64,000 nucleotides of DNA from a virus, in the IMG/VR virus record IMGVR_UViG_3300008516_000085, positions 20,233 to 84,232 of that record, one strand, 5' to 3'. This document shows positions 19,330-36,500 of this stretch, piece by piece. Numbering within the stretch: the stretch's first letter is position 1; the number at the start of each line of letters is the position of its first letter. The notes beneath the pieces are model-generated. The model saw only the letters and a list, made by a program, of their open reading frames with translations, was not told where the DNA came from and made no database searches. The translations under genes and the position numbers were made by a program.

Positions 19330-19971
19330 TTAACCTCTATCCAGTAAAAACGCAGGAACACTCTGTCCCTCAGCTCCATCCATACCTGTAGTCCCTTTAA
19401 CAACAGAAGAGATCATACCTGTATACCCTATAATCCCAGTGAGACCCTGTAATCCTGTTATACCGACTTTACCGGTTTCACCATATATACCTGTGATGCC
19501 CTTATAACCCTCTTCTCCTTTATCTCCTCGAAGAGTATAGTTACCATATCCTGCATAAACTTCTATATCATTCTTTGTGATAACTTTAAATGATTTGAGA
19601 TCAGTACTACCATCTTGTTGCAATTTTACCAAAACGAGAGGAATTTTACCAGACAGGTTTTCAAAAATTTTTACATCACCAAAACTCTTTTTGTTATAGG
19701 TAATACTTGGAAGTACTTCAAGTTGCTTTGAGGGATTAAGAGCTATAAGTACATATAAGATGTCATTATAATTGTTGAATAATCTTCTCGAAGTACTCAG
19801 GATATATTGAGATATTAATTGCTGAATATCTATTCTCAAGTTATTGAGAACTACCCATTTATTCTCAACAATAACTGAACCACCCTTTATGAACACGACA
19901 TTCTCACCATGTTCACGGGTATCTTTCAATGAAGCTGAAAAATCATTTTTATTCTTTGATTTAAATGCCAT
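19330..19971 (-). CDS. Collagen-like short fibre protein with adapter domain (copy A)
   Basis: A 213-residue protein with two parts. Residues ~25-145 form a beta-rich domain (VFIKGGSVIVENKWVVLNN, then IPLVLVKLQQDGSTDLKSF) shared with the next gene and the 27972-29156 protein. Residues ~148-205 are a collagen-like segment with glycine at nearly every third position (GITGIYGETGKVGITGLQG). Collagen-like triplets form trimeric rods, so this is a likely trimeric fibre shaft with an N-terminal attachment domain. There is no receptor-binding tip after the rod, which ends in AFLLDRG. It lies directly after the gpI-like gene's upstream end, five bases away. A virion surface fibre is inferred. Confidence 0.75.
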   Translation of the reverse strand: MAFKSKNKNDFSASLKDTREHGENVVFIKGGSVIVENKWVVLNNLRIDIQQLISQYILSTSRRLFNNYNDILYVLIALNPSKQLEVLPSITYNKKSFGDVKIFENLSGKIPLVLVKLQQDGSTDLKSFKVITKNDIEVYAGYGNYTLRGDKGEEGYKGITGIYGETGKVGITGLQGLTGIIGYTGMISSVVKGTTGMDGAEGQSVPAFLLDRG

Positions 19972-20013
19972 GCTATGCTAATTTTATTAGTAGATTATCG
20001 TTTAGTTTTTAAT

Positions 20014-20661
20014 TTAGAGCAATATCTCAAACGGTACATAGATATCCCAATTTATACCTGTCATACCCCTAAGACCTGTATCACCCCTTATAAGACCTAT
20101 AGTCGGACCTATATATCCTGTTGGACCCTGACGTCCCGTTGTCCCTTGATATCCATTTATTCCGGTTTCACCTCTCCAGCCAGTTTCACCATGGATGATA
20201 CTATCCTCACCAACTACTCCTTTTAAATCTTTATCTATGATATTACCTGTAGCAGAGAAATAGATAAGATTCTCATTTTTTATAGGCTTAAATCCAAGTA
20301 CCAAATCCCGAGTACCATCCTGGATAAGTATTAACCCTATAAGAGGAAGAGCAGTAAAAGACTCGGGTGTTGGGACAGCTTGAAGGGTAGTAAATAGAAT
20401 ATGCTTTCCTTCAATTACCATAATACCTTCATTAAGATCAAGGCACACCAAAAGATAGACAGCATAATTTCTATCTTTAAAAAATCGAGTTCTATTTCCG
20501 ACTACCACACTCGATATATAGTCTTTTACTTTAAATATTGTCCCTGCAAAACTTACCCAAGTATTATCTATAATAAAAGATCCTGCATTAATTCTTACAG
20601 AATCATTAGATAATATGGGAACTGTTCCAGCGGAAACTTTTTCTGATTTTGGCTTTAACAT
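20014..20661 (-). CDS. Collagen-like short fibre protein with adapter domain (copy B)
   Basis: A 215-residue paralogue of the adjacent 19330-19971 protein. The N-terminal adapter runs to about residue 140 (SVRINAGSFIIDNTWVSFAG, and LPLIGLILIQDGTRDLVLGF). It is followed by a shorter collagen-like run (GETGWRGETGINGYQGTTG) and a short tail. Sequence similarity is clear by pattern but moderate, so the duplication is not recent. The Gly-X-Y run is shorter and less regular than in copy A. Such pairs could build heterotrimeric or alternative fibres. A 42-base gap separates the pair, and this gene is followed downstream by copy A. No signal peptide or catalytic motif is visible. Confidence 0.75.
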   Translation of the reverse strand: MLKPKSEKVSAGTVPILSNDSVRINAGSFIIDNTWVSFAGTIFKVKDYISSVVVGNRTRFFKDRNYAVYLLVCLDLNEGIMVIEGKHILFTTLQAVPTPESFTALPLIGLILIQDGTRDLVLGFKPIKNENLIYFSATGNIIDKDLKGVVGEDSIIHGETGWRGETGINGYQGTTGRQGPTGYIGPTIGLIRGDTGLRGMTGINWDIYVPFEILL

Positions 20662-20700
20662 AATAAACCTTTTAACTACAAAATTTAAAATATAAGATTA

Positions 20701-22548
20701 TTAATCAAAAATCAGAGTAGGGCCCCGAGTTCTCGTGAAGCCCCCTCCAGTATTGATACCTAATAAGGGAGGAAGAGTTACAACAATATATCCAAGTTTA
20801 ATTTCAGTATCACTAAAAGGACCTTTAGTGGCAACTAAAGTTACAGTATAACTTCCTGGACTTGTATAGATATGGGTGGGATTCTGAACAGAACTGTGAG
20901 GAGAACCGTCTCCAAAATCCCAATTCCATGATGTAGGTTCACCCGTAGACAAATCTGTAAAATTTACTATAAGATTCACGATACCAGATAATGGATACCC
21001 TATAAAATCTGCTATCAAGGTAGCACCTTTATCGAGTGCTCCTAAATCAGGCGGATCACCTCTAAGAACACCTATTAAATCATAAGGTGGTGTTTCTGGT
21101 CGAGTAATACCTACACCTATACAGGGACTACCATCCTGTAATTCATAAGGTACTGGAAGTGTTCCTGTATATAAAGGATCAACTGATGTCTCTGTTGCAG
21201 TGGGAGATTCTTCAACAGAGTTTACTTCATAATAATAATCACTGGAATTATTATGATCATGAATAAACTTACCCAAATTTCCTGGGATAGCTAAATATAA
21301 ATAAAATTCTATCCCATCTACGGAATTGTCAACATTATTAAATAGCATTAAATTAGTAATAATAGCTCCACTACTATCATCTATATATCCTGAAAGCATA
21401 TATCTTAAACAATCATAAAAAGTATTATTAACTATAATTATATCAATAGGAGTAGTATCACTATAATCTATGTACATTGCAGCATATCCAGATCTATCTT
21501 TAAATACATTATTAAAAATTCTTACTGGATATGCCGTATCATAAACATATATGGCATAACTTGTTCCCGTATCAAATATATTATTACTTATTTCAGAGGA
21601 AGCCGTTGATGTATCTGTTATATATGCTATAGCTCTAGAATTTGTAAAAGTACAATCAGTAACTAAGGTAGGATTAATAGTTATAAAAGTACCTAATAGT
21701 GAACCAGATATATTTAATGAAATCAAATTTAATTCATCAAAATTATTATTTCCAAGGGTCCATATATTTGTACTTACATAATTAGTTACTGTACTATTAT
21801 TATGACTAATATCACTAGGTATATTATCTGCGCTATTGTATGTAAGAGGTTCAGTTATATCATTTACTAAATAAATTGTATCGTTATTAAATGCTATATC
21901 AGGATTTGCAGGATTTGATACTATCTCCATAGATGTTACTAACATATTATTGATAGAATTAACCTCATTTGTACTAAATCTATAAGGAAAACTTCCTGCA
22001 GTAAATAATTCGTTCCAGCTACTAAATCCATGCGTATCAACATAAATAGATACACCATTGAGTAAAAGTTCCATAGTAGTAGCAGATACTCTAAAGGTAT
22101 AAGTTCTGGAAACACCCGAGGTGAATTTAGTAAATGTTGTAATAGCTATACCATTTTTCTTTATTTCACAAGTATAAGTTACAGTAGGATCAGAAATAAG
22201 CGGATGACTAGATGTAATAACAAAAGCATAGTTTCCTATTATAATATCAGTAGGTCCAAGGTTAGTACCTACTGGTAGTATCCAAAAACCAGGAGCAAGT
22301 TCAATTAGTATAATATCATATTGAGTTATAATAGTATTAAAATCTACATGTTGACTTAATATAGGAAATGGTGGTGTATGAGATTCCAATGTAGATATAA
22401 CATATGAAGAACTGACTAAATGATTTAAGAACCTATAATTATTACCACTAAGATGCTTAGTCAAACGAGTTAAAGATTGAGCACCTTTAGCTTCGGTATC
22501 ATAAGGATAGGTCTCAGTTCCAGAATTATTTATGTAATATGCTGCCAT
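20701..22548 (-). CDS. Parallel beta-helix adhesin with C-terminal PKD domain
   Basis: A 615-residue surface protein. The N-terminus (MAAYYINNSGTETYPYD) matches the start of the 25329-26666 protein. Residues ~290-430 contain NNxF-type repeats (ISNNIFDTG, IFNNVFKDRSG, IIVNNTFYDC) typical of right-handed parallel beta-helices found in phage tailspikes and pectate-lyase-like folds. The segment ending near 510 (DGSPCIGVG to PPDLGALD) is a common end-cap of such proteins. Residues ~515-595 form a PKD domain with SWNWDFGDGS, NPTHIY and GSYTVTLVATKG. The C-terminus GGGFTRTRGPTLIFD is shared with the 22570-22878 protein. No obvious catalytic residues are recognisable, so binding of surface glycans is the likely role. 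Confidence 0.8.
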   Translation of the reverse strand: MAAYYINNSGTETYPYDTEAKGAQSLTRLTKHLSGNNYRFLNHLVSSSYVISTLESHTPPFPILSQHVDFNTIITQYDIILIELAPGFWILPVGTNLGPTDIIIGNYAFVITSSHPLISDPTVTYTCEIKKNGIAITTFTKFTSGVSRTYTFRVSATTMELLLNGVSIYVDTHGFSSWNELFTAGSFPYRFSTNEVNSINNMLVTSMEIVSNPANPDIAFNNDTIYLVNDITEPLTYNSADNIPSDISHNNSTVTNYVSTNIWTLGNNNFDELNLISLNISGSLLGTFITINPTLVTDCTFTNSRAIAYITDTSTASSEISNNIFDTGTSYAIYVYDTAYPVRIFNNVFKDRSGYAAMYIDYSDTTPIDIIIVNNTFYDCLRYMLSGYIDDSSGAIITNLMLFNNVDNSVDGIEFYLYLAIPGNLGKFIHDHNNSSDYYYEVNSVEESPTATETSVDPLYTGTLPVPYELQDGSPCIGVGITRPETPPYDLIGVLRGDPPDLGALDKGATLIADFIGYPLSGIVNLIVNFTDLSTGEPTSWNWDFGDGSPHSSVQNPTHIYTSPGSYTVTLVATKGPFSDTEIKLGYIVVTLPPLLGINTGGGFTRTRGPTLIFD

Positions 22549-22569
22549 CTTATTCTCTTATCCAATTCT

Positions 22570-22878
22570 TCAATCAAAAATTAAGGATGGTCCTTTATCC
22601 CTTACAAAACCAGTACCAGTTTCCTCTAAAAAGATATTTATATAATGATCTTTAGTCATTATACTTTCTATAGAGCCTTCACGAATAATTAAGCTAACAG
22701 TATAAAGACCTTGACTAGTATATGTATGAAGAGGATTTTGAACCGTAGAATTAGGAGATCCATCACCAAAGACCCATTCCCAAGTAAAAGTTCCACCTGT
22801 AGATTGGTCAAAAAATTGAATCAGAGTATTTATATTCCCCGATAATGGATTAGCATAAAAATTAGCAAATAAAGACAA
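22570..22878 (-). CDS. Single PKD-domain protein
   Basis: A 102-residue protein that is almost only a PKD domain: residues ~5-85 with WEWVFGDGSPNST, NPLHTYTSQGLYTVSLII. It then ends in the same kind of tail (GTGFVRDKGPSLIFD) as the beta-helix protein encoded next. The first residues (MSLFANFYANPLSG) enter the PKD fold directly, with no N-terminal head or attachment domain. PKD domains are all-beta modules often involved in adhesion or protein contacts. The ATG is near-adjacent to the end of the preceding gene (42 bases). It looks like a freestanding module of the adhesin cassette, perhaps a decoration protein or a module donor, and it could equally be a decaying gene remnant. Confidence 0.75.
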   Translation of the reverse strand: MSLFANFYANPLSGNINTLIQFFDQSTGGTFTWEWVFGDGSPNSTVQNPLHTYTSQGLYTVSLIIREGSIESIMTKDHYINIFLEETGTGFVRDKGPSLIFD

Positions 22879-22920
22879 AATTAATTCCTATTTTTAATCT
22901 CTTTGTAACAAACATTAAAC

Positions 22921-25302
22921 TTACATTTTTCGTAACTTAATACCTACGATCTCTTTAATAGTAGATACTGCCCCTTGTAAAAACATATTCTTATCTGGTT
23001 CAGGAGCTATATCGTACGTTGCAGGTCCATTTACAATGATATACTCCGTTTTAACTACCGTCAGAATACTATCTGATCCAGAAGCAGTAAGAGTTACTGT
23101 ATAATATCCTGGAGAAGAATAATAATGTACAGGATTTCTTTCTGTTGAATAAGATTCATCAGAATATAATTCATCACCAAAATCCCAAAACCAAGTGTTA
23201 AAGTAGTCACTAGAGATATTCTCAAAAGTTACCGTTAAAAAAGAATTTCCTTCTGTTGGATGACCTATAAAATCTACTAAAAGTAAAATTGCCTGTATAT
23301 AATCAATTCTTATTCTTGTAGCTTCTATAAAATTCCGAGTTTCAATCAAAGTAACCGTATATAAACCATTATCCTCATATATATGAACAGGACTAAAATC
23401 TGAGGAATGTGCAGATCCATCTCCAAAATCCCAATCACGTGTTATTATCTGTGCATTCTCATCAGGCCATCCTGTTGTTTCATTCGTGAAAGTTTCTGTA
23501 AGAGGAACATAATCACTTAAATTGTCAGCAGAAAATTCAGCCAATAGAAATTGAGGATACATACCTTCTCTCATTTTCCAGATAGTCGGAAAGCTCCAAC
23601 CAGTATATGTGGATTGAAGTTGCATTTGTGCTGTAGTTTTACCTGTCCCATGACCTGATGTTGCCTGTTCTGATGTCTCTATATCCCAATAACAACTATT
23701 CACAGTTTCTCCATGATCAACAGCAAATCCATTTACTGCAGTTGGACCTGCATAATTAGTACCTCCAATATCCTGAGTGACTTTACCTATACTATAACAA
23801 TTACTAACAACACTACTGACCCCGCCAAGATCTCCTGCGAAACCCCCAATAAAAGCGTAAGTATCTCCAGGAGAATTAAGCAGTACATCGCCAAGTGCAT
23901 AACAATTTGAAAGACCAAGGCCATAATCTGTAAAGTCTCCAAAAAGTCCACCAAGATTACCTGCTTCTCCTTGAACATTACCAAAAGAAAAGCATTGATA
24001 AGCACTTCCACTATGGTCTGTGATAAACCCCGCTACTCGATAAATTCCTGCTGCATTTCCTATACTATAGCAATGATCAAAATCTATCGCTGAAGTATAC
24101 CCCGCAAAACCTCCTATTAGTTGAGAAAGTATTGATTGAGAAGATAAAGGAGTTTCTACATTTCCTGAAGAAAAACAATAACTCACTTTACCTCCATCAA
24201 AGGATTCTTTACCAATCATATATCCAGCAAAACCACCAACTTCAAAGGAACCTTTTGAAACAGAGACAAATCCAGTAGAATAACAGTAACTAAATTCATA
24301 TTCTGGGAATACACTAGCATACCCTAAAAAACCCCCAATCATTTGACAACTGTCATTCTCGTGGGTGATTACAACATTTCCTGTTGAAAAACATCTTGTC
24401 ATAGTATTACGTAAGAAATACCCAACAAAACCTCCTATTTGATAAAAAATTCCTGAAAGATTTAAATTTCCAGTAGAAGAACAATTATCAAAAGTATCAT
24501 AAAAAGTACGTCCAGCAAAACCACCAAGAACAGCAACCTCAGCAAAGCTAACATCAGGAGCAACAACCGTAATTTCAATAGATGTTGAACAATCTTCATA
24601 AGTATTATTACTAGTTTGTCCAACAAAACCACCTATATTACTGGGTTTTCCATTCAAAATAAGAGTACCCGAAGCATGACAATTAGATATAATTTCTAAA
24701 TCGCTAACATTACCTCCTATTCCTCCTATTCTATTACCATCTTTACCTCTTATTTCTAATGTACTTGTACAATTTTTTATATAACCACCTCTTATTAAAC
24801 CAACAATACCCCCATTATCTTCACTATATATATCAGTACAATAAAATTCTAAGTTAACACTACAATTATCTATATATGAAATTTGAGCCTCAGAAATAAT
24901 CCCAGCTAAATTACTCCAAGATTGTATATACCCTGTAACACTACAATTTGTAAATGTAACTTCCGTATTACTTTTTGCCACTATTCCTGATGCCCATTTA
25001 TTCGAAATAACTGAAATATTTTCCATAGCTAAATCATGTATATAAGCTCCCTCTGCATATTCAAATAATGCTTGATATGTATCAAGAGGTCTATTAATAT
25101 AAAAATTAGAAATAACAAAACCAGCACCATTTAAACTTCCGGTAAACGATGCAATAGGAATAAAACCTGCCCCACCATTCCATCCCATTGTAGCAGAAGC
25201 ATCTATGTCATTAGCTAACTCATAATCACCATCAATAGGCCATGAGGGTCCACTCCCTATAAGTTGTAATTCTGATATAGTACTTATGTATATTGTTGCC
25301 AT
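22921..25302 (-). CDS. GLUG-repeat adhesin with two PKD domains
   Basis: A 793-residue beta-solenoid-type protein. Residues ~60-560 contain repeated GGF(A/V)G...NC(Y/S)S(T/I)GN motifs, the GLUG repeats seen in bacterial surface adhesins. I count roughly a dozen units, each with a Cys in the NC or RCFS position. Then come two PKD domains at ~595-675 (RDWDFGDGSAHSS) and ~675-765 (WFWDFGDE). The C-terminus (NGPATYDIAPEPDKN, then a conserved tail) matches the end of the 25329-26666 protein, even at DNA level. The protein has no visible catalytic motif or signal peptide, as expected for a virion protein rather than a secreted one. It would be an attachment protein recognising host or environmental polymers. 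Confidence 0.82.
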   Translation of the reverse strand: MATIYISTISELQLIGSGPSWPIDGDYELANDIDASATMGWNGGAGFIPIASFTGSLNGAGFVISNFYINRPLDTYQALFEYAEGAYIHDLAMENISVISNKWASGIVAKSNTEVTFTNCSVTGYIQSWSNLAGIISEAQISYIDNCSVNLEFYCTDIYSEDNGGIVGLIRGGYIKNCTSTLEIRGKDGNRIGGIGGNVSDLEIISNCHASGTLILNGKPSNIGGFVGQTSNNTYEDCSTSIEITVVAPDVSFAEVAVLGGFAGRTFYDTFDNCSSTGNLNLSGIFYQIGGFVGYFLRNTMTRCFSTGNVVITHENDSCQMIGGFLGYASVFPEYEFSYCYSTGFVSVSKGSFEVGGFAGYMIGKESFDGGKVSYCFSSGNVETPLSSQSILSQLIGGFAGYTSAIDFDHCYSIGNAAGIYRVAGFITDHSGSAYQCFSFGNVQGEAGNLGGLFGDFTDYGLGLSNCYALGDVLLNSPGDTYAFIGGFAGDLGGVSSVVSNCYSIGKVTQDIGGTNYAGPTAVNGFAVDHGETVNSCYWDIETSEQATSGHGTGKTTAQMQLQSTYTGWSFPTIWKMREGMYPQFLLAEFSADNLSDYVPLTETFTNETTGWPDENAQIITRDWDFGDGSAHSSDFSPVHIYEDNGLYTVTLIETRNFIEATRIRIDYIQAILLLVDFIGHPTEGNSFLTVTFENISSDYFNTWFWDFGDELYSDESYSTERNPVHYYSSPGYYTVTLTASGSDSILTVVKTEYIIVNGPATYDIAPEPDKNMFLQGAVSTIKEIVGIKLRKM
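22960..23290 (-). repeat. Direct repeat copy 1 (PKD plus C-terminal tail)
   Basis: This stretch encodes the last PKD domain and C-terminal tail of the GLUG protein. It is similar at base level to 25370-25690: long blocks such as GGTTCAGGAGCTATATC and CAAAAGTTACCGTTAAAAAA are identical in both. Base-level identity this high among otherwise diverged genes indicates recent duplication or gene conversion. Boundaries are approximate. Confidence 0.7.
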
Positions 25303-25328
25303 TTTCTACTCAATTTTAAATAGTGATG

Positions 25329-26666
25329 TTATATCAAATGTTTTCTTATCTTTATCCCAGTAACCTCTTTACTTAGAATTCCCAATCCTCGTAGATACAT
25401 TGTTTTGTCCGGTTCAGGAGCTATATCATACGTCGCAGGACCATTTACGAATATATAATCTGTCTTAGTCTCAGTAATAGTACCACTTAGTCCAGAAGCC
25501 GTGAGTGATACAGTAAAGTATCCTGGATAAGAATAATAATGTATAGGATCTCTTTCTATAGAATGATATCCATCTCCAAAATTCCAAGACCAGGTATCAA
25601 AAGAACCTATGGAAAGATTCTCAAAAGTTACCGTTAAAAAAGCATTTCCTTGTGTTGGGGAACCTCTAAAATCTACTATTAATTCCGAAATCGCTTCATA
25701 AGCTCCTATACTTGGTGGGTCTGCATAAGGATACCCTAAAATATCATCAGTTAAAATGCCACCAATAAATGATCTACCAGCTATATAACAAGGACTTGAA
25801 GTATCAATGGATAATGGGTTAGGTTCTACATTTAAATAGAGCGGGTCTGCTGCAATTTCAGTTACATCAGGAGCAACTACTGCACCATTTAAAAAATAAC
25901 TAAAATTTTGCGACACGGGACTACTATCAGGTATTTTACAAACGTTATTAGAGTGCACTATAGAAGAGGAAGGATATGCTATAATTACATGTATTCCCCT
26001 ATAAGTAGTTTGCATTACATTATTATATATTTCAAAAATTCCTATATTAGCATATTGTGGATTCATGAGTAAACTTATTGCAGTTCCTATACCCCTTATT
26101 GAATTACCCACAATTCTAACAGTAATTGGGAACGTTGAGAGCTTATCTGGAAAGACCAATATTCCCATATATTTAAATCCAATTAAAACACTACCTATAA
26201 CTTGTACATCACACGGATCATAATTAGTATAACCATTCTGTAAAAGGGTCTCTCTTATACCTTTACCATCGATTCTACACTTTTCTATTAGCTTTGCATT
26301 TAAAAAAAGAGGATAAACAGATTGAGTTTCATTATCTGTATAAAAACCCAAATTTTTATAAATTGAACATTCAGCCCCAGCATATCCCATAAAGGTATTA
26401 TTACTCATATTTATTATATCTACTAATGGATCTGTACCAATAATACTTGCCCCATAAATTTTATAAAAAGTAGTAGGAAAGAAAGGTGAAGCTACAGCTG
26501 GTTCTTCAATAAAACCATTAACATAAACAGTATCACTTTGAGTTAAGTTTGGTATTCCATAACTTTGTAAACTTACAAGTAATGAATAAATTGATGTAGC
26601 AGCAGTTTCTCTACTATTAAATGGGTATGTATTAGATCCAGTAGCTTCTACATAATATGTTGCCAT
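25329..26666 (-). CDS. Beta-helix-like adhesin with PKD domain
   Basis: A 445-residue protein with the same N-terminal start (MATYYVEATGSNTYPF) as the 20701-22548 protein. Residues ~40-300 are beta-helix-like, with NSIRG, YNNVMQ and HSNNV repeats. The end-cap SSPCYIAG to PPSIGAYE resembles that of the paralogue. Residues ~325-410 are a PKD domain (WSWNFGDGYH, DPIHYYSYPGYFTVSLTA). The C-terminal tail NGPATYDIAPEPDKT is shared with the GLUG protein. This gene therefore combines the head of one neighbour with the tail of another, which is direct evidence of module exchange. Its likely role is host recognition. It has a longer 5' leader similar to that of the 20701 gene. Confidence 0.8.
   Translation of the reverse strand: MATYYVEATGSNTYPFNSRETAATSIYSLLVSLQSYGIPNLTQSDTVYVNGFIEEPAVASPFFPTTFYKIYGASIIGTDPLVDIINMSNNTFMGYAGAECSIYKNLGFYTDNETQSVYPLFLNAKLIEKCRIDGKGIRETLLQNGYTNYDPCDVQVIGSVLIGFKYMGILVFPDKLSTFPITVRIVGNSIRGIGTAISLLMNPQYANIGIFEIYNNVMQTTYRGIHVIIAYPSSSIVHSNNVCKIPDSSPVSQNFSYFLNGAVVAPDVTEIAADPLYLNVEPNPLSIDTSSPCYIAGRSFIGGILTDDILGYPYADPPSIGAYEAISELIVDFRGSPTQGNAFLTVTFENLSIGSFDTWSWNFGDGYHSIERDPIHYYSYPGYFTVSLTASGLSGTITETKTDYIFVNGPATYDIAPEPDKTMYLRGLGILSKEVTGIKIRKHLI
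25370..25690 (-). repeat. Direct repeat copy 2 (PKD plus C-terminal tail)
   Basis: This is the partner of the repeat at 22960-23290, in the same orientation about 2.4 kb away. It covers the PKD domain and the tail of the 25329-26666 protein. Pairing of these copies would let recombination delete or swap the head domains that lie between them. Confidence 0.7.
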
Positions 26667-26706
26667 CTTACTATCCTATCCAATTCCTCAATCTAAAATC
26701 TTTATT

Positions 26707-27282
26707 TTATATAAGACCTAAATAGGTCTCTAAATCAACACTATACGATCCATAATCAACATAATTATGCATAGGAGATGATCCAGTGGCTCCAAAAGTA
26801 TCACCAAAATCCCATTGAAGACCTGTAAACTGTAATCCGGTAGGAGTTATATTTTCTTCTTCAAAATTTACAGATAGAGGTTTATCACCGTACACTGGTG
26901 CTGCAGAAAAATCCGCCTTACCTAATATGATATGATTAGCAGTATAGCCACTTACATTGAACCATATAGAAGTATTATCTTTTACTCGCAGAAACACTCT
27001 ATGATATCCATAAGTACTATAGGTATGAGATGGATCAGGATCAGTACTGTTATCTCCATCTCCAAAATCCCAGTTATATGCTATAGGAGGGCTCGATAAT
27101 CCCGTCTCACCAAATAAGGCAGTGTCCCCTAATGATCCAGTCCACCCTATATAAACACCGGTTTCTCCATATGAAAGCCCTGTTACCCCAAAGCAAACAT
27201 CTGCAGGAACTACGTCTATTAATGGAAAGCTCTTTAAAATAAATAGTCCACTGTCCGGATCTCTTTGCTTTATAGATATCAT
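26707..27282 (-). CDS. Double PKD-domain protein
   Basis: A 191-residue protein. The first ~60 residues contain several GETG or GWTG turns (SYGETGVYIGWTG), reminiscent of the collagen-like neighbours but not periodic. Two PKD domains follow, ~62-120 (AYNWDFGDGDNS, THY-type SHTYSTYGYHRVFL) and ~118-188 (LQWDFGDTFG, MHNYVDYGSYSVDL). The protein ends right after the second domain. It lies 27 bases after the upstream gene in the adhesin cassette. No signal peptide or catalytic site is visible. It may be a linker or decoration protein on the fibres. Confidence 0.75.
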   Translation of the reverse strand: MISIKQRDPDSGLFILKSFPLIDVVPADVCFGVTGLSYGETGVYIGWTGSLGDTALFGETGLSSPPIAYNWDFGDGDNSTDPDPSHTYSTYGYHRVFLRVKDNTSIWFNVSGYTANHIILGKADFSAAPVYGDKPLSVNFEEENITPTGLQFTGLQWDFGDTFGATGSSPMHNYVDYGSYSVDLETYLGLI

Positions 27283-27309
27283 AATGGTTTGCCCTGTACT
27301 TTAAACTTT

Positions 27310-27966
27310 TTACAGTGTATTAAGATAACCTGCTTTACCTCTACCTTCGGTATAAAAAGGTATAGGGCTCTTTGTTTTAGACCACACCCTAAATTCATCA
27401 ATCTTCATAGTGCTATCCGGTAAAATATCGGTTTTAGATTCAGTAACTGAAAGAGGATTATTATTATCAAAAACTATTACTCTAAGTTCTTTTATATAAT
27501 AAGAAAAACCACCAGCCCACATTTTATGTGAACTTCTGTCAAAATTAACAAACATCCATTTATTAATCTCTGCGACCTTTTCTCTCGATCTAAATATTTT
27601 AGTATTATCCTCAAACACTAAAAAAAGATCTTGATCAAAATAAAATCTCCAGTATTGACCAGAGTCCCTATCAAATGATTGAGCTATAATAAAATTCGTA
27701 ACCGGTTTATAAATATCAATAGTTATAAAATCTTCTTTCTTTACGGTAAATTGTTCAGAGTCCGTCTGAGCTATTAAAATTACCTTATACTTACCCGGAT
27801 AATAGTATGTATGATGAATAGAAGCAAGACCCTCTCCCTCAACTACAACACCATCTCCAAAAATCCATTTTCTATTTATAACGATCAAATCCGTAGGATC
27901 ATTGAACGTAGTAGTAAGATAACCCAATCCGATTCTCTCCGTTGCTGTTATATCTGGTTGTGCCAT
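27310..27966 (-). CDS. PKD plus LamG-like protein
   Basis: A 218-residue protein with a PKD-like domain in the first ~85 residues (NRKWIFGDG, HHTYYYPGKYKVILIAQ). It is followed by a second beta-sandwich (~90-200) with WMFVNFDRSS, AGGFSYYIKELRVIVF and the ending KIDEFRVWSKTKSP. That ending resembles the IDEVRIY pattern of concanavalin/LamG domains, which bind carbohydrates. It sits six bases downstream of the collagen-type gene. A glycan-binding tip or accessory is the likely role, with the LamG call less certain than the PKD one. Confidence 0.7.
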   Translation of the reverse strand: MAQPDITATERIGLGYLTTTFNDPTDLIVINRKWIFGDGVVVEGEGLASIHHTYYYPGKYKVILIAQTDSEQFTVKKEDFITIDIYKPVTNFIIAQSFDRDSGQYWRFYFDQDLFLVFEDNTKIFRSREKVAEINKWMFVNFDRSSHKMWAGGFSYYIKELRVIVFDNNNPLSVTESKTDILPDSTMKIDEFRVWSKTKSPIPFYTEGRGKAGYLNTL

Positions 27967-27971
27967 AATAT

Positions 27972-29156
27972 TTATACTACCGTTATTTGTTCAGTTCTAG
28001 TACTCGATCCCGCCTGATTAGTCGCTGTCAAACTTATGACATAAACTCCCGTCTCTCCAAAAGGATAAACAAAAATCCCTTTATCAAAAATATTTCCCTC
28101 AATATTCCAAACAGTACTATCGGGATAATATAATGAGGTATTTATGAATCTTACCGGATACGAACCTATTCCAATCTCCTGTTCATAAATGAAATCTGCT
28201 ATAGGAGGTTGATTAACATTAATCCATGACTGTATTGTTCCAGTAAAACCTAAGTAACTATCATTTGTATACCCAGATCTTCCTCCATTATACGTAACAT
28301 TATGACAGTTATCTATAATACCTTCTTCACTTGTATGGTCTGATTGATCAAGATCAATCATATATATAACCATCCCGGTGTACCCTGAAATACCAGTATA
28401 CCCGAAAATACCTGTGTACTCTGGACCTATACCTGTATATGCTGGAACACCCGTATATCCCGGAACTTCATAGACAAGACCTGTTACCCAAGCTCCTGTA
28501 GATCCCCATAAGAAATCTCTTTCATAAGGAGAGTAATCAGTAACTACATCTTCATCACATTTAAATTTCAAATACATAAGAAGATCTAGATCAAGATATA
28601 CCCCAGTCTCTCCTTGAGGTCCTGTATACCCTTGAGGACCAATACCAGTATCACCATGAGCACCCGTAATCCCCATAGTCCCAAACATACCTGTAATACC
28701 TTGAAGACCTGTATACCCTATAAAACCTGTCTCTCCTACTTCCCCTTTAGCTCCTCTATCTCCCTGTGTAAAATTTTTAGTGACTGCAAAGGTCGACATA
28801 TTGGAGTAAAGATTAATATTTTTTACTTCAAAACTTGATAGAGATTGTTGAAGGATAAATTGCCCGATAGGGATAGCATTAGCTATTGCTGTACTATCAT
28901 AAGATGCTAAGTAGTTCTCTGATTTCTTTACAGTATCAAAAAGAAATATACCTTCATCTATTAAGTAATAAACATTTACAACAGCATAATATCTTTTTTC
29001 TGTAGGAAGAGTAAAAAAAGTCTGTTGTCTTAGAGGTATAACAAGATTAGAAAGAGATACTATCTTATTATTATATAAAAGAGTGCCTATATTTACAACA
29101 TAGTCTATTGAACCATCGAGATTTTTACGCTCGAAGATATTATTTGCATTATCCAT
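27972..29156 (-). CDS. Collagen-like fibre protein with adapter, LamG-like segment and PKD
   Basis: A 394-residue mosaic. Residues ~15-135 are the same adapter as in the 19330 and 20014 proteins (YVVNIGTLLYNNKIVSLSN, then GQFILQQSLSSFEVKN). Residues ~138-185 are collagen-like Gly-X-Y (GETGFIGYTGLQGITG). Next comes a segment starting LMYLKFKCDEDVVTDYS, resembling the strand start of LamG-like folds and interrupted by more YTG-rich repeats. The C-terminal ~80 residues resemble a PKD domain (PIADFIYEQ, then GVYVISLTATNQAGS). It lies just after the propeller protein. The combined rod plus binding domains is what a host-binding tail fibre needs. Confidence 0.77.
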   Translation of the reverse strand: MDNANNIFERKNLDGSIDYVVNIGTLLYNNKIVSLSNLVIPLRQQTFFTLPTEKRYYAVVNVYYLIDEGIFLFDTVKKSENYLASYDSTAIANAIPIGQFILQQSLSSFEVKNINLYSNMSTFAVTKNFTQGDRGAKGEVGETGFIGYTGLQGITGMFGTMGITGAHGDTGIGPQGYTGPQGETGVYLDLDLLMYLKFKCDEDVVTDYSPYERDFLWGSTGAWVTGLVYEVPGYTGVPAYTGIGPEYTGIFGYTGISGYTGMVIYMIDLDQSDHTSEEGIIDNCHNVTYNGGRSGYTNDSYLGFTGTIQSWINVNQPPIADFIYEQEIGIGSYPVRFINTSLYYPDSTVWNIEGNIFDKGIFVYPFGETGVYVISLTATNQAGSSTRTEQITVV

Positions 29157-29162
29157 ATGATC

Positions 29163-32100
29163 TTATTTCCGAACAAGAGGCTTATTAATTAATCGATACA
29201 ACGATATCGATGTATCCGCATCTTCTGTATATCTAGGCTGATATTCCGTTCCTGTATCATCATAATATCCCGTTTTATTTTCACTTCTTGCTCTATATGT
29301 CTTACTAAAAATTACCATAATCAGCTCACCTCTTAAAAAAGGATAAATCATATTAGATCGTACTCTAGCAAGAAAAGGTATAAAAACTTTTCTTGGTGTA
29401 GATATAGTAAGATCTTCACAATGAGATATAACATCTAAAGAGCATTTCTGATAAAAAGGCCTACCAAGTTTATCTCCTATGTTATTAGGCATTGAAAGAA
29501 CTAAATCCTCACCTATATATTGAGATACAATAGCTGGTAATTTAACAAAACCAGTGTCTATCCTAAAATTAGCGAAATCAAGATCATCTACATTAGAGAA
29601 GAAGTTATCATTAAAGACCTCTTTTGAATTAACCGGGATATGCTCCGCAGGAATCGCATAAGGTTCTCCAACTATAACATCACTTGATCCCGTACCTAAA
29701 TTAGTTATATAAACAAAATCTGAGTTTTTCAAGATCTCAATCTTCATCTCACTAGGTAAATTAGCCACAGGTTGATAAGGAATATACTTATAAAAAACAG
29801 ATGAAACAGAAGCTTCATCAAGATCAGTTAAATTAGACTGCTTTACTAGTAATGGTACTATAATGGTACCCGAAGTAATAGTTTTTCTTTCATCGAACGT
29901 TATTACAATACTGGAAGTTCCTAAACCCTCAACACTAGCAATAGGTACCATAGTAAAATAATTTGTCTCATTCGACTTATACCAAGCATACTGTTGTAAC
30001 GGATTATCCCTTACATCACAGGAAGCTATCCCTAAAATGATCCCATTACTCAGCCCACTAGTATTAGGTCTATCACTTAAATCAATAGGAATCGTTGTAC
30101 CGAGACCCTCCGTAATCTGATAAAGAACTCCGGTATACATACCCGCTACTGATCTGGAAGCAATATTAAAATTAGAAGTAAATGAGGTCCTAAGAGCATC
30201 CTGATTTTCACCACGAGATTTAACAGTTATTCCTACATCATCCATTGTTTCCGCAACAGCATCAGCAGTAACTACCGCTTCAAGGGTCACCTCTACTATA
30301 GAATTACCCGGGATCGTAAACGCTGGATCGAGATACACAATAATATTACTAAGATCTGAACCTTCACGGTCTCTCATAGTTTCATTATCTTGATAATTGA
30401 TACCTATCTTGTATATAGAACCATTCACATTCTTAACCGATCGAGCTCCATAAATAGCATATCCATTAAGATTTTTAGGTATAAGCAATTGATCAGTAAC
30501 AACCGTAGTCTTTAAAAAATAATGATAAAGTACGAGAGATCCCCGATATTGTTGACCCTTAAATTTATTAAATCCACGCTGATAATCAGGATCATCGTGT
30601 GTTTCATAACCCACTAAGTTATATAAATCTTGATCATCTAAATTATTCTGTACCATTTTAGCAGAATAAATCTCAGTATAATCATGATAACCTGTTACAT
30701 TCTCAGACAATTCTTCTAACATCTTATAAGGTACTCTAGAATTTATACCATTATAGTATGTCGAAGTATTCGGATTATTTGGATTAGATTGATATTTAAC
30801 TGAAATAGGATCTTGAGGAACTTTACTCAAACCAATTTTACTATAGTCCAGATAATTAGCCGTAAAAACATAAGTAATACCTTCAAGATCTCCACCTGCA
30901 GGGGCAAAATCATCTTCAATATGGAAAATAACTTTATTGGTTCCAAAACCTTCCCACGTCCCACTCACAGGTTCATTTGTGATTTCACCATCTCTACTTA
31001 CAAAAGCAGTATAATAAGATGGATCATTATGATAAAGACCTGTATCAATAGGACCAAAAGTTAATTCCGCAGTAGTAATAATAATATTGGGATCAAGTAC
31101 TTTTTGATCTGGTGTTATAACCGCTGCAGAAGAAACACCACCTGTTACTAAATTATTATTATCAGTCTCACCCGTATAAGTATCTACCATCATAAGTGTC
31201 GAACCGTATTGTAAACCCTGCTGATCTTTATCACTTAAATTAGTGTAAAGAGAATTCGACAATAATTTCTCAAGATTTTTTTCCAGAAAATAACTATATG
31301 ATTGAATATTTATCTGTCTTCTGATATCAATCACATCATTAGCTACAATATGATTATACGTTAAACCATCAGGTCTTATAGCTCCAAGACTAAAATCAGT
31401 GGATCCATTGATATTATTATTTACATCAAAAGCAGAAGAATTTCTACGGGTAACAAAAAACATAGGTATAGACCAGCTATAACCATCATAGGTGTTACGG
31501 CACCGAGCTCTCCATAATCCATAATCACCATTTTCCTCACCCATGTTTACAAAAATGTAACTGCCAGAATCCGTAGTACTAAGATTTGGACCAAGGCTAT
31601 AAATAAAGTCATGACCAAGACCTGCCTCAGTATAAACATAAGGGTCAACCCCTTCAGCGATTCTTATTCTGTATTGAATTTGAATACGTTTAGTAGTCTC
31701 AACTCCTACCTGAGGATCAATAATATTATCAGGAAGATATTCCTCAGTCCCTGAAAGAACATTACCCTCGGGATAAATACGACCAACTGATTTTGTAACA
31801 AGATCAGTTTCTTGTACAGAAGGAGTACTTCCACTATAATCTACAATAGTACCATCAGCACCACAGTACCATCCAATAAGGTCATCAACAAAATAAACAT
31901 TTTCCAAATCCACCCCTACACCAAGATCAAGAATTTCCCATTTTGCACCACTATTACTGCTATAAAGTGCTGCACCATAATCACCAACTATCCAAGCTTT
32001 ATCTTCTACTGAAAAAGAAATTTCAGCTGGAGTAACACTTGAAAAGCTACCATAAGAGGGTCTGAAATCAGATGGTCTACTAAAAGGCTCATAATCGATT

Positions 32101-33566
32101 GAAGCCTCAAAAACTCTTACTTTTTCACGATCATCATTTGGGAGAGAAGCATCCGATAACTTATAAGGACTCACAATAAGATTTATAGCATCCTTAAGTT
32201 CTTCTGAATTAGCATACATATCAAGATTAAGAACATTTATATAGTTAATATTATCTTGTACCCCTGTGTATTCTAGTACAAAAGAGTTTGGATAATTCGA
32301 TGGAGAAATCTTATAAATAAGATTTTTAAAGAAATTCTTGGAACTCGGATATACTGCTACTGTAAATTTAATAGGGTATTCTCGTTTAATAAAAACTTTA
32401 TTAAAACTTGTTGTTCTTTCTGGGTATATCTCAGAAATAGATTTATATTCCCCATCATACCAGATACGATCAGACATCTCAGACCAAGAAAATCCACTAT
32501 CTGATGTCCTGAAAATTTTCCCATCATCTGATATCGCTATACCATCATTTAAGTTATAAAAACCCATAGAGGTAATATTTGATGTTATTGTCACTCCCAA
32601 AGCTACATTTGTCATATTATATTTCTGCCAAATGCTTCCCCCATCCTTTGTCATAATAAGGGTACCATCATTACCCGCTGCCCATCCCACTGCCACATCA
32701 TAAAAGTATACGGTATTAAGGTGTTCAGTAACACTCGAAGTCTGAGAAGAAATGAGAAAGTTAGTCCCATCGATAGATAACAAAACAGTTCCATTGTCAC
32801 CAACGATACAGATGTTATTATCACCTATGATATATAAATCATTTAAAGTATCAGTTACAGGACTCTCAAGAGCAAACCAAGTTTCTCCACTATCAATAGT
32901 CTTAAGAATTACTCCATTGATACCAATAGCATACCCAAGATAAAGATTATAAAAAGCGACTTTATTGAATGTAGTATTAATAGGAGTCTCTATCGAAATC
33001 CAATTTATACCACCATCAATAGTTTTAAGTATCGTACCCGTTTCTCCTACACACCAACCAATATTTTCATTATACATCCAAAGACCTTTTAAAGTACTTA
33101 CTTTAGATATAGGCTGTGGTTTTGATATTTCTTCTGTTGAATCAGAAGCATTACCACTTTGAGGAGATACTATAGCTCTCCATACTTCGAGAAAAACACC
33201 ATCTACTCTAGAACCTGATCTTATTGAGTCATTAAATTGAATATCATTCACATGACGCAATGGTGAATTAGTATTTGTTACATAAACAGGCCATCCATTT
33301 ACCATGGCTACTTCCGGTTTAGCGCCCTCTGGATCCTGTGTATAAAAACTATTCTCAAGATCATTAGAGGTATATATCTGTCTATAGCTTAACCAACCAG
33401 AAGGTATATGAGCTGTTGACTTACGAGTATTAATCTCCTGAAATTCTTGAGCGGAATTAAGCTCTGTATCTAATGGAGGTTTACCTTTTTGGAAAACAAC
33501 CTTATCAAAAGCATATCCCAATCCCTCTAATGAGGTAGAAGTATTTTCTTCGTTGTTGGTAGCCAT
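29163..33566 (-). CDS. Tail structural protein with inserted YCF48/BNR beta-propeller
   Basis: A 1467-residue protein. The N-terminus (~1-140) and region ~600-770 match the 9772-13023 protein. Between them lie blades of a beta-propeller: GWCVGETGTILKTIDGG, GYAIGINGVILKTIDSG, ICIVGDNGTVLLSIDG, GWAAGNDGTLIMTKDGG, GIAISDDGKIFRTSDSG, then after a ~110-residue insert AWIVGDYGAALYSSNSG and GWYCGADGTIVDYSG. These match the Ycf48-like/BNR pattern G-x-x-G-x-x-G-T-I-x-x-T-x-D-G-G. Such propellers often bind glycans or proteins. The rest is beta-rich, including many GT-rich strands. Because the shared scaffold is present without a propeller in the paralogue, I read the propeller as an insertion. It precedes the fibre genes, so it may present a receptor-binding domain at the baseplate edge. 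Confidence 0.8.
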   Translation of the reverse strand: MATNNEENTSTSLEGLGYAFDKVVFQKGKPPLDTELNSAQEFQEINTRKSTAHIPSGWLSYRQIYTSNDLENSFYTQDPEGAKPEVAMVNGWPVYVTNTNSPLRHVNDIQFNDSIRSGSRVDGVFLEVWRAIVSPQSGNASDSTEEISKPQPISKVSTLKGLWMYNENIGWCVGETGTILKTIDGGINWISIETPINTTFNKVAFYNLYLGYAIGINGVILKTIDSGETWFALESPVTDTLNDLYIIGDNNICIVGDNGTVLLSIDGTNFLISSQTSSVTEHLNTVYFYDVAVGWAAGNDGTLIMTKDGGSIWQKYNMTNVALGVTITSNITSMGFYNLNDGIAISDDGKIFRTSDSGFSWSEMSDRIWYDGEYKSISEIYPERTTSFNKVFIKREYPIKFTVAVYPSSKNFFKNLIYKISPSNYPNSFVLEYTGVQDNINYINVLNLDMYANSEELKDAINLIVSPYKLSDASLPNDDREKVRVFEASIDYEPFSRPSDFRPSYGSFSSVTPAEISFSVEDKAWIVGDYGAALYSSNSGAKWEILDLGVGVDLENVYFVDDLIGWYCGADGTIVDYSGSTPSVQETDLVTKSVGRIYPEGNVLSGTEEYLPDNIIDPQVGVETTKRIQIQYRIRIAEGVDPYVYTEAGLGHDFIYSLGPNLSTTDSGSYIFVNMGEENGDYGLWRARCRNTYDGYSWSIPMFFVTRRNSSAFDVNNNINGSTDFSLGAIRPDGLTYNHIVANDVIDIRRQINIQSYSYFLEKNLEKLLSNSLYTNLSDKDQQGLQYGSTLMMVDTYTGETDNNNLVTGGVSSAAVITPDQKVLDPNIIITTAELTFGPIDTGLYHNDPSYYTAFVSRDGEITNEPVSGTWEGFGTNKVIFHIEDDFAPAGGDLEGITYVFTANYLDYSKIGLSKVPQDPISVKYQSNPNNPNTSTYYNGINSRVPYKMLEELSENVTGYHDYTEIYSAKMVQNNLDDQDLYNLVGYETHDDPDYQRGFNKFKGQQYRGSLVLYHYFLKTTVVTDQLLIPKNLNGYAIYGARSVKNVNGSIYKIGINYQDNETMRDREGSDLSNIIVYLDPAFTIPGNSIVEVTLEAVVTADAVAETMDDVGITVKSRGENQDALRTSFTSNFNIASRSVAGMYTGVLYQITEGLGTTIPIDLSDRPNTSGLSNGIILGIASCDVRDNPLQQYAWYKSNETNYFTMVPIASVEGLGTSSIVITFDERKTITSGTIIVPLLVKQSNLTDLDEASVSSVFYKYIPYQPVANLPSEMKIEILKNSDFVYITNLGTGSSDVIVGEPYAIPAEHIPVNSKEVFNDNFFSNVDDLDFANFRIDTGFVKLPAIVSQYIGEDLVLSMPNNIGDKLGRPFYQKCSLDVISHCEDLTISTPRKVFIPFLARVRSNMIYPFLRGELIMVIFSKTYRARSENKTGYYDDTGTEYQPRYTEDADTSISLYRLINKPLVRK

Positions 33567-33569
33567 ACT

Positions 33570-36500
33570 TTAATATCCTCGTTTGTTTACTTTCTCATCA
33601 ACTATTTCTATATCTCTCAAACTAATATTATCTATTTCTAAATATTCAATCTCAGACGTATAAATATCATCCACCGGATTTTCATCAGCAGCATAATAAG
33701 TAAAATATGATACTTTATAATATTTAGTCTGCGGTGGGGCTCCATCAGTAGTACTTACAATAATTTTACCATCAGATTGTATATAAGATCTTCCAATACC
33801 CTTCGAAACTTCAATAGGAGTATTAACAAGTTCTAATACTTTATTATCCTCATAAACTCCTCTAAAGTAATTAGAGTCACCACCGTTATCTGAAGTGTTA
33901 TAGGTCAGTACACTATTGATACTTCTATATGAAGTAACCCCCGATGCACTTGTTTTACTATAAACTTCAAATGTAGTATATCCTACATCGTCCAGGGGTA
34001 TAAAAGAACTATTCCTTTTCATCATCCTAGTAAAGGGTATCCGGATATCTTTCACTCCTTCTACAGTACGTACAATACTTGATACATCACTTTGAGTTAA
34101 AGTATCTCCCATTTTTAATCTAGATACCTGATTAGAAACAGCAGTAACTATTCGTGATTTCAAAATGTTTATATCAGTACCTGTTTTTCTTACTACTACA
34201 AAGCTAATATCAGCAAAATTTCTTATAGCCTGTTTCGCTATAGTGTCTGCACAAGCATGCTTCATCTCATCAATTTTTATCTGTACTTGTCTTATGAGAT
34301 CATTTGCTACAAAAGTTACATTAAAATTTTCACTAGCTTGATATGATACTGCTACCCGATCACCATGTCTTATTTTACTATGATAAAGAAGTTCAATATA
34401 TGTATATGTAATATCACTTCCTACATCTATGGAATAATCGACATCCAGTATATATGGATCACCGCCCCCTACAGGAGTAATCACTATAGTTTTAATATTA
34501 ACACCTTTTAATACAAGTCGTGCTGGACTATCATAAAGCATATCATGCTCTTCATCAATTACTGTAACAAATTCCTGAATATTATCTGATTCATTGAAAT
34601 AAAACTTCACAGCATCCTTAGCTATACTCGAATTTCCATTCATTAATGGATCTTCATATTTAACAAGTTCATACTTTGAAGTATCAATAACTGAACCTCC
34701 GGAAGTTGTAACTGAAACAATACTTTCAAGCGGCTGTTGTGATAAAACCAACATATTAGAACTTCTATACAAATACGCTACTTCAACAACATCAAATGTA
34801 GATAAACCAATATTTGTATTCTGTTGATTTTTTTCAAGAAGAATTGTATTACCCTCTCCGATTATCTGAAGATTAGCTAATGAATAATCTTTACCAAGAG
34901 TGATATTCCTAACTTTACTCACAGAAACTATAGGATTATCGACATTTACACTCTGATTTTTACACCTTAATCTAAAATCGGAAGCATCTGAAATATAAAA
35001 AGGTTCTCCTACTTTATTTCCGTAAGTATCCGTAGGATATTCATAACTAAAAGCTACTTGATCAATCATTTGCATCAAGCGAGTACCTCGGATATAAATA
35101 TCTACTTTACCGCCAATATGCTTATTATCAGTAGCATCATAGTCTCTCATCATTAAAGGATCTCCAGCAATCTCTACTCTAGCTTGTATAACGCCGGTAA
35201 CATCCATAGAAACAGAATTATATCCACCCTCAGTACCTGAATCATAATCGAATTTAGCAACTTTTATTCTATCTGAGAATTCTTGATTGCTCTCCCGATT
35301 ATTTCCATATCTTGTAGGAACCTCATTATTTACTCTTACACTTGGAGCTACATTCTGTGCTACCGTAATTGAACCTGCTGGGACATTACCATTTTCTCCA
35401 GCAATTTGAGCTTCTATATCAGCCTGAATTTCATAACGTTTTGTAGTTGGGTTATAATAAATGTCAGGATTATCTGAACTAAGTATCTTCGTACCCTTTA
35501 TCACAAAATTAACAGCCCTTCTATTAAGATCATAATTAGCTAATGTTGAAACAATTGTATTATCGACAATGAGAATATCATTAGTAGGGCGTACTTCAGT
35601 GTAAAAAACCACAGAACCTATAGAATATGTAGTCCCTTTTCTTGTAAGATTATAGTTTGATCCAAATTTATCAAATTGCTCATCAATTAACAATTGAAGA
35701 TTAGAAATATCTCTAAGACCTAATGCTGATGCCAAAGCTCTTTTACGAGTACTTGTTGAAACAGAATCGCTTACTCCATCACCATCTGCGTCATCAAATT
35801 GTAAAAGAGTATCAAGAGATGAGCATGCAAAAATAAAGTCTTGTATCACATACATTTTTTCGAATTCTAAAGCCACAGGATCAGATATATCGCGAATAAC
35901 AGATCCTGGTACAACATTAATTTGATCATTATTAACCATCATCTCTTTAGAAATAGAGAAAAGTACATCACTTCTTGATCTTTTAGGAAGAGTCTGATAA
36001 TCGGTAGAATATTTTAAAAATTGACCTTCAAGCTCTTGAGAATAGGGGCTTTCAATTAATTGATTAAGAGCGTTATCAAATGTTCTTACCGTAGATATCA
36101 AATAATAAATAATGTCATTACTTAATGTCTGACCATCAGAAAGAAAAATATTAGGGATTTTACCTTCTTGTACGAGTCTAGCGATAACTGCTTTATTTAG
36201 TGTATAAGTATAATATTCATTAGTTACCTGTTTAGTTCTTTTTGTAGTGACCGTAAGATCATTAACCGTATCTTCATATGAAGATTCTTCTACTAAAACA
36301 TCTTCACTTTCTCTTTCATCAACATCTGTTATTGGTACATCATTCATAAGTACATAATCAGTACCAGGAGTTAAACTCATGAAAAAGTTACAACCAGAAA
36401 AATCATTATTCTCATTAAGAACTATACCCGATGATGGTATCAATATTTTGATGCTATCATCATATCTTTTAATCTTCATACCCGTAGGAGGATAAGCAGA

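Follow-up and report, generated by a model that had tools for sequence, protein, structure and literature searches.

A mosaic island of putative adhesin genes with a conserved C-terminal module in an uncultured lineage of very large tailed phages

Phage loci for host recognition are well known to be mosaic. According to Smug et al. 2023 (PMC10684548), unrelated phage tail proteins have fragments in common, recent shuffling is pronounced among those for host recognition, and receptor-binding proteins combine a conserved tail-binding N-terminus with a variable C-terminus. Here we analyze a cassette of ten genes at positions 19330 to 33566 of a 64,000-nucleotide stretch of virus DNA (the window), which is part of an 84 kb virus record (IMG/VR IMGVR_UViG_3300008516_000085). 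Like the domain-mosaic receptor-binding proteins of that study, the cassette and its relatives share fragments between otherwise unrelated proteins, but the genes that end in PKD domains and a short tail keep their C-terminus and vary their N-terminal body. We consider it probable that the cassette is a mosaic host-recognition (adhesin or tail-fibre) island, carried by very large tailed phages of an uncultured lineage. Judged from sequence, this island is real and lineage-wide, ordinary in kind and unusual in its C-terminal module.

Three further described systems invite comparison. The pelagimyophage host recognition cluster (PMC7029224) is likewise a non-syntenic island within structural genes that holds tail fibres and glycosyltransferases, the latter present here in two relatives (G009 and G011). 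However, the flanks of the present cassette are formed by genes that we label A, c9, k8 and k7 on one side and c2, c1 and B on the other, and its modules are PKD and collagen ones. In the cryoconite phages (PMC7468147), near-identical cores carry alternative, highly diverged host-recognition genes, a pattern ascribed to recombination and also seen here; it was demonstrated there by read recruitment across sites, whereas our view of it comes from few contigs. Gut-phage PKD/BACON adhesins and T4 Hoc (PMC13370021) resemble the cassette proteins in their PKD or Ig-like domains and varied domain combinations, and T4 Hoc is said there to have a C-terminal capsid-binding domain. Unlike these, the cassette genes adjoin baseplate-type genes, and BACON was not matched in any of the 30 cassette proteins, from the window and its relatives, scanned with Pfam. 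What the present locus adds is a lineage in which a short C-terminal module stays constant while the N-terminal part changes, and in which exchange is visible between near-identical phages.

A variable interior between constant edges

The ten genes that an earlier note on this DNA had read as reusing a few parts are all present as minus-strand open reading frames, arranged as A, c9, k8, k7, x6, g5, p4, r3, c2, c1, followed by B. The short names (A, B, c1, c2, r3, p4, g5, x6, k7, k8, c9 and J) are our own. The features are as follows:

33570..36929, minus strand: J, tail protein upstream of A, with a weak match to phrog_1608 tail protein (3.6e-4); adjoins A in relatives
29163..33566, minus strand: A, 1467 amino acids, YCF48-like BNR repeats (Pfam PSII_BNR 1.7e-18); constant edge gene by comparison with relatives
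27972..29156, minus strand: c9, N-terminal domain, collagen-like rod (26.6 bits against a Pfam cut-off of 27.2) and PKD-like end; constant edge gene
27310..27966, minus strand: k8, PKD domain protein (Pfam); constant edge gene
26707..27282, minus strand: k7, with a pair of PKD domains; an edge gene in the majority of relatives, lacking in G002 and unmatched in G013
25329..26666, minus strand: x6, variable-interior gene with a body related to that of r3, PKD and a D-type tail
25332..25457, minus strand: D-type tail of x6, NGPATYDIAP...GIKIRKHLI, which aligns with the leading half of the D+G tail in G008 and others
22921..25302, minus strand: g5, GLUG-repeat body (Pfam Glug 4.6e-18), two PKD domains and a D-type tail
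22924..23043, minus strand: D-type tail of g5, by alignment
22570..22878, minus strand: p4, single PKD and the T1 version of the GPxLIFD tail, without a body
22573..22617, minus strand: G-type tail (T1) of p4, GTGFVRDKGPSLIFD
20701..22548, minus strand: r3, beta-helix-like body (Beta_helix 0.0025, under the Pfam cut-off), PKD (Pfam PKD_4 2.6e-15) and the T2 version of the GPxLIFD tail
20704..20748, minus strand: G-type tail (T2) of r3, GGGFTRTRGPTLIFD
20014..20661, minus strand: c2, N-terminal adapter and collagen-like rod; constant edge gene, directly after the G-tail gene r3
20227..20661, minus strand: N-terminal adapter domain of c2 (AlphaFold model, VIA-align)
19330..19971, minus strand: c1, adapter of the same type as that of c2 and collagen-like rod; constant edge gene
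14657..19324, minus strand: B, baseplate-type protein that bounds the cassette (phrog_1160 baseplate protein, 6.2e-10)

The cassette is thus set among virion structural genes, with baseplate- or tail-type genes on both sides, some of whose matches are weak.

Relatives were found by searching IMG/VR with A, B and c2, and each window module was compared by tblastn at E 1e-5 with 14 related records or record pairs (G002, G004, G005, G003+G006, G008 to G013, G015, L045, L051 and L052). Outside the counts stand near-copies (G001, G007 and L046, of G000, which is the window's own record, G008 and L045, respectively), a record that has A and B and whose 28 kb interval holds only short plus-strand open reading frames (G014; plus strand examined), one that ends about 0.9 kb after A (G016), three with A- and B-like genes on opposite strands (G017-G019), three short loci (L017, L022 and L024) and one locus unlike the rest (L054). 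We found that c9 was matched over at least 94% of its length in 12 of the 14, and over 42-46% in L045 and L052, loci centred on c2 that may not reach c9. Matches to k8 covered at least 94% in 11 relatives and 83% and 48% in G015 and G011, with none in L045. At the other edge, c2 (at least 98%) and c1 (at least 96%) were matched in 12 of 14, the remaining G002 and G004 being contigs that end earlier. Between these kept flanks, gene content is non-syntenic. The g5 body was found in none of the relatives and the r3 body in three (G002, G005 and G003+G006), where the x6 body was matched over 44-60% only, at 28-30% identity; all 14 show some degree of match to the PKD-plus-tail parts, which is to be expected of a repeated domain. 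The earlier note had proposed a search for head or tail swaps among isolates or contigs of the same phage, and bodies, gene order and head-tail combinations do vary between the relatives compared here rather than being identical throughout.

Within this arrangement, one edge is formed by A, c9, k8 and mostly k7, and the other by c2, c1 and, often beyond a second variable stretch, B. These edge genes would encode a baseplate-proximal frame, as their neighbours and the predicted fold of the c2 adapter suggest, and the variable interior lies between k7 and c2. Many interior proteins are built from an exchangeable N-terminal body, a variable number of PKD domains and the conserved C-terminal module. 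The bodies are beta-helix-like, GLUG, LamG/DUF2341, BNR, PARCEL or bactofilin-like, and some proteins have none; the bodies may bind cell-surface or matrix sugars.

The sharing of parts within the window was largely, and in places only partly, as first described. Both shared tails were recovered by alignment: x6 and g5 are 61% identical in amino acids over 119 columns of PKD and D-type tail (E 3e-42) and 74% identical in nucleotides over 307 bases, the common part beginning at the PKD boundary (residues 329 and 674), and the PKD and GPxLIFD tail of r3 and p4 are 48% identical over 106 columns (E 5e-27). At 74% nucleotide identity, module copies within the window are old. The MA(T/A)YY heads of x6 and r3 look homologous by way of a relative (x6 and the G005 relative of r3, 40% over 47 amino acids, E 1e-5) and of the ends of the two bodies (30% over 90 amino acids, E 5e-6), but a direct comparison of head with head gave no match at E 1e-3. 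As proposed, x6 pairs the head type and the tail type of two other cassette genes; g5 is its direct neighbour, but r3 is not. PKD domains, said to recur in seven or more genes, exceed the Pfam cut-off in six of the ten, with a seventh gene under it, and the window record holds nine PKD_4 matches, eight of them over the cut-off and every one inside the cassette. The N-terminal adapter attributed to three genes is clearly common to c1 and c2 (27% over 120 amino acids, E 3e-11), but similarity to c9 is marginal (E 0.002 to one of them and 0.13 to the other), and with a profile-profile probability of 6.6% the c9 adapter could not be joined to them with confidence. Collagen matches are over the Pfam cut-off in c1 and under it in c2 and c9.

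Rearrangement is also apparent in more distant relatives. A block of three genes (445, 1104 and 732 amino acids in G005) keeps its order in G010 at 29-36% identity but not its place: in G005 it separates the tail genes from c2, and in G010 it separates k7 from the tail genes. In the part of G012 that follows c1, a single head family carries three kinds of C-terminal end; a short end of this record, PPNxIWFGADF, which was spotted by eye, is carried by two heads that blastp did not link at E 1e-5. G009 has three genes with one and the same head family, of which two bear the full tail and one does not. The r3 body carries T2 in the window and T1 in G002, G005 and G006, whose bodyless gene has T2. 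A tree of the last PKD and tail grouped T1 with a support of 79/94 and T2 with 8/0. A T1/T2 swap was not retained as a significant result, as the no-swap tree was not rejected (approximately unbiased test, AU, p 0.117).

Other genes lie in the variable intervals of individual relatives. Glycosyltransferase genes are found between A and B in G009 and G011 (L031:5892-7472, L034:7233-7904 and L034:7901-8896), their types being families 8 and 9 within one protein, family 2, and group 1. The interval of G015 includes a gene for a papain-family cysteine peptidase (L023:16306-17208).

Exchange between near-identical phages

The best-documented exchange replaced nearly a whole gene, not a head, between two near-identical phages, one of which is read from two contigs. 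G003 (L005) and G005 (L007) are 98.1% identical over 16,752 bp, and homology ends at the start of the gene after k7. In G005 this is a 117-amino-acid PKD gene with a D tail, and in G003 it encodes PKD domains and a body with a bactofilin match just under the Pfam cut-off. G006 is a contig from the IMG sample that also yielded G003. It starts inside PKD repeats like those of G003 (74% over 135 amino acids), from which we infer that the two are pieces of one genome. The end of the exchanged gene in G006 is 62.9% identical in nucleotides to that of G005, whereas G005 and the more distant G002 are 78.6% identical there. An alignment of G006 with G005 that starts inside this end runs for 11.9 kb at 94.7%, and further on the same two phages (L008 and L026) match over 24.6 kb at 96.7%.

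Beside the exchanged gene, divergence between neighbouring gene blocks is strongly uneven. Synonymous divergence (dS) in seven consecutive genes up to c1 is 0.165, 0.149, 0.153, 0.283, 0.018, 0 and 0, the value of 0.018 belonging to the MSIP gene and the zeros to c2 and c1; for B it is 0.156. Counted per 500 alignment columns, eight bins with 25-69 differences each are followed by eight with 0-7, and neighbouring 4-kb blocks differ at 361 versus 21 positions (9% versus 0.5%). This unevenness looks like tracts of homologous recombination, and exchange between phages looks real. Co-infecting relatives may have recombined at gene borders and at PKD repeats, in the ordinary homologous or illegitimate way.

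A C-terminal module and its possible attachment to the virion

The two tails distinguished in the earlier note look like two halves of a single C-terminal module, about 60 residues long, with the pattern T-x-DIAP ... GI-x-I-P ... GFxRxxGPxLIFD. In genes with both halves, GFxRxxGPxLIFD or a close variant of it comes after the D half (T-x-D-x-A ... G-I/V). Such D+G tails occur in G008, L045, L052, L051, G009 (two genes), G010 (two genes) and G012, with looser forms in G011, G013 and G015, while in the window x6 and g5 have the D half only and p4 and r3 the G half only. A tight DNA pattern for the G half, applied to IMG/VR (2.9 million contigs by the tool's description), found 12 stretches on 11 contigs, all of them already known clade members and six of them holding two copies; the pattern was drawn from these same sequences and misses looser forms, so that the restriction to the clade applies to the tight form only.

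The position of the module is also conserved. In 11 of the 13 distinct records that show c2 (G000, G008, G009, G010, G012, L051 and L052, and with looser forms G011, G013, G015 and L045), a G-tail gene stops 8-39 bases short of c2. The exceptions are G005 and G006, in which the three-gene block lies between. The bodies that precede the tail at this fixed place fall into five groups without similarity at E 1e-5 (the types of r3, of G008/L045/L052, of G009, of G010 and of L051), and the tail genes adjoining c2 in G011, G012 and G015 have no clear body. The L051 gene (L051:8456-9991) has a PARCEL-repeat body, of surface-lipoprotein type, ahead of its GPxLIFD tail, and is preceded in the same frame by a separate open reading frame with related repeats (77% over 52 amino acids).

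The AlphaFold model of the c2 adapter (predicted local distance difference test, pLDDT, 83.2; predicted template modelling score, pTM, 0.78) aligned in VIA-align with a phi812 baseplate chain (Z 9.2, root-mean-square deviation 3.4, 110 residues). It also aligned with the cyanophage A-1(L) tail fibre (Z 6.5), SPP1 gp22 (5.4) and TssK (3.7), where by the tool's own note a Z below 8 may mean a common arrangement only. Identity in these alignments is 8-16%, and the c2 side is a predicted model. SPP1 gp22 presumably belongs among the proteins with a receptor-binding-protein shoulder domain. Foldseek found nothing for the adapter at E 0.001, the best values being 0.09 in PDB and 1.3e-3 in BFVD (phage G gp255). 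According to PMC6300606, the TssK shoulder domain binds the baseplate and TssK resembles phage receptor-binding proteins, and the predicted adapter may have a fold of this shoulder type. Taken with this role of the TssK shoulder, the alignments lead us to read c1 and c2 as fibres that are probably attached to the baseplate. A structure model of r3 was too poor for use (pLDDT 37.9).

We tentatively propose that the C-terminal module serves this clade, and it alone, as a virion docking tag, which c2 or a neighbouring baseplate protein could recognize. Almost any bacterial-type adhesin body might then be mounted through its C-terminal end, opposite in polarity to ordinary tail fibres; we hold this arrangement, too, to be possible rather than probable. 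With similar reserve, the tag may have split in the window lineage into D-only and G-only (T1 and T2) halves, which could correspond to separate sockets for several adhesins at once. Gene adjacency is what points to docking of the D/G tail on c2, or on the virion near it, and conservation together with gene order is what suggests a Hoc-like C-terminal anchoring. If the docking tag is true, the module would be a small transferable plug.

Weighing the explanations

Several observations weigh against an island built by exchange of parts. The window record and G001 differ by no rearrangement. G003 and G006 are two contigs, each of which breaks off within PKD repeats, and mis-assembly is possible at each end. 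The reading frame is interrupted at the G006 joint (L013 reverse complement, about 457-505), where the PKD repeats of the exchanged gene give way to its D-tail end, so that this gene may be decaying or misassembled. The case for the r3 head on another tail draws on motifs and a weak tree (T2 8/0, AU p 0.117). A weak link connects two of the body groups (a second G009 gene to G010, 33% over 85 amino acids, E 5e-4). Finally, dN/dS is below 0.25 in every gene with dS above 0, and no codon-level positive selection was seen in these genes.

The cassette had first been likened to a diversification system, and a dedicated machine acting on it, such as a retroelement, an invertase or an integrase-driven shufflon, would fit the reuse of a few modules in one array and the uneven divergence. 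However, reverse transcriptase (RVT_1), tyrosine integrase (Phage_integrase) and serine recombinase (Resolvase) were each matched in none of 14 records searched, a set that includes those of the window and G001, leaves aside L045, L051 and L052, and consists in large part of fragments. Inverted repeats in the window cassette are short and imperfect (the longest 33 nucleotides at 73%), and the sister record G001, with 4 mismatches in 21,835 bases, has the same cassette unchanged and is in practice the same phage. Nothing in these searches points to a dedicated system, absence from fragmentary records being no proof, and we regard one as very improbable. RecA, considered as a common engine, was matched in one of the 14 records only (G012) and was set aside. 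Unlikely, if less so, is a history of gene duplication, divergence and loss within each phage line without exchange between phages. The age of the window copies (74% in nucleotides) suits such a history, and the T1/T2 and D/G tails resemble duplicated, partly lost copies, but it leaves unexplained a diverged gene version in a 98%-identical background and 0.5% beside 9% difference. Duplication may account for part of the array even if exchange between phages, which we favour, holds.

Two other roles can be considered for the C-terminal module. PKD domains are common in secreted bacterial proteins, and the module could be a sorting or secretion signal used in the host, like that of type IX cargo, on proteins that are secreted and are not parts of the virion. 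A phage with proteins bearing type IX C-terminal sorting domains is described in PMC7468147. However, no type IX sorting family appeared among the NCBIfam matches (E up to 1) of 9 cassette proteins or the Pfam matches (E up to 0.01) of 30, and the cassette genes sit among baseplate-type genes; this role appears quite unlikely. Tail spikes are known with conserved C-terminal chaperone ends, and a folding or trimerization element in place of a docking tag is a possibility that we rate as somewhat doubtful. The conserved end is short and its place beside one partner gene is fixed in 11 of 13 records, which speaks for a docking tag, but neither point excludes a folding element.

Promoters and terminators were not adopted as joints of the modules, with 69 promoter-like sites against 72.5 expected and 12 terminator-like sites against 5.7 expected. 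No known RNA family was found at gathering scores in window positions 14600-37000. A scan of GTDB genomes gave no relative of A (135 stretches matched the pattern, 0 were confirmed), and no host is therefore suggested. An annotated phage collection held no near match to the cassette and none at the protein level to B, r3 or c2; A was matched in 4 records, over about residues 593-807 only. Two of these records are of Bacillus phage G, and the others are of Tunturiibacter phage Tunturi_5 and an uncultured phage. The accessible part of the Tunturi paper (PMC11924767) has nothing on the cassette. In Tunturi_5, two genes adjoining the A-like gene are annotated RCC1, and the G009 interval encodes a 1532-amino-acid protein with 16 RCC1 repeat stretches (L031:7477-12075). 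Within the window, a gene at 9772-13023 is distantly paralogous to A (31-36% over two stretches).

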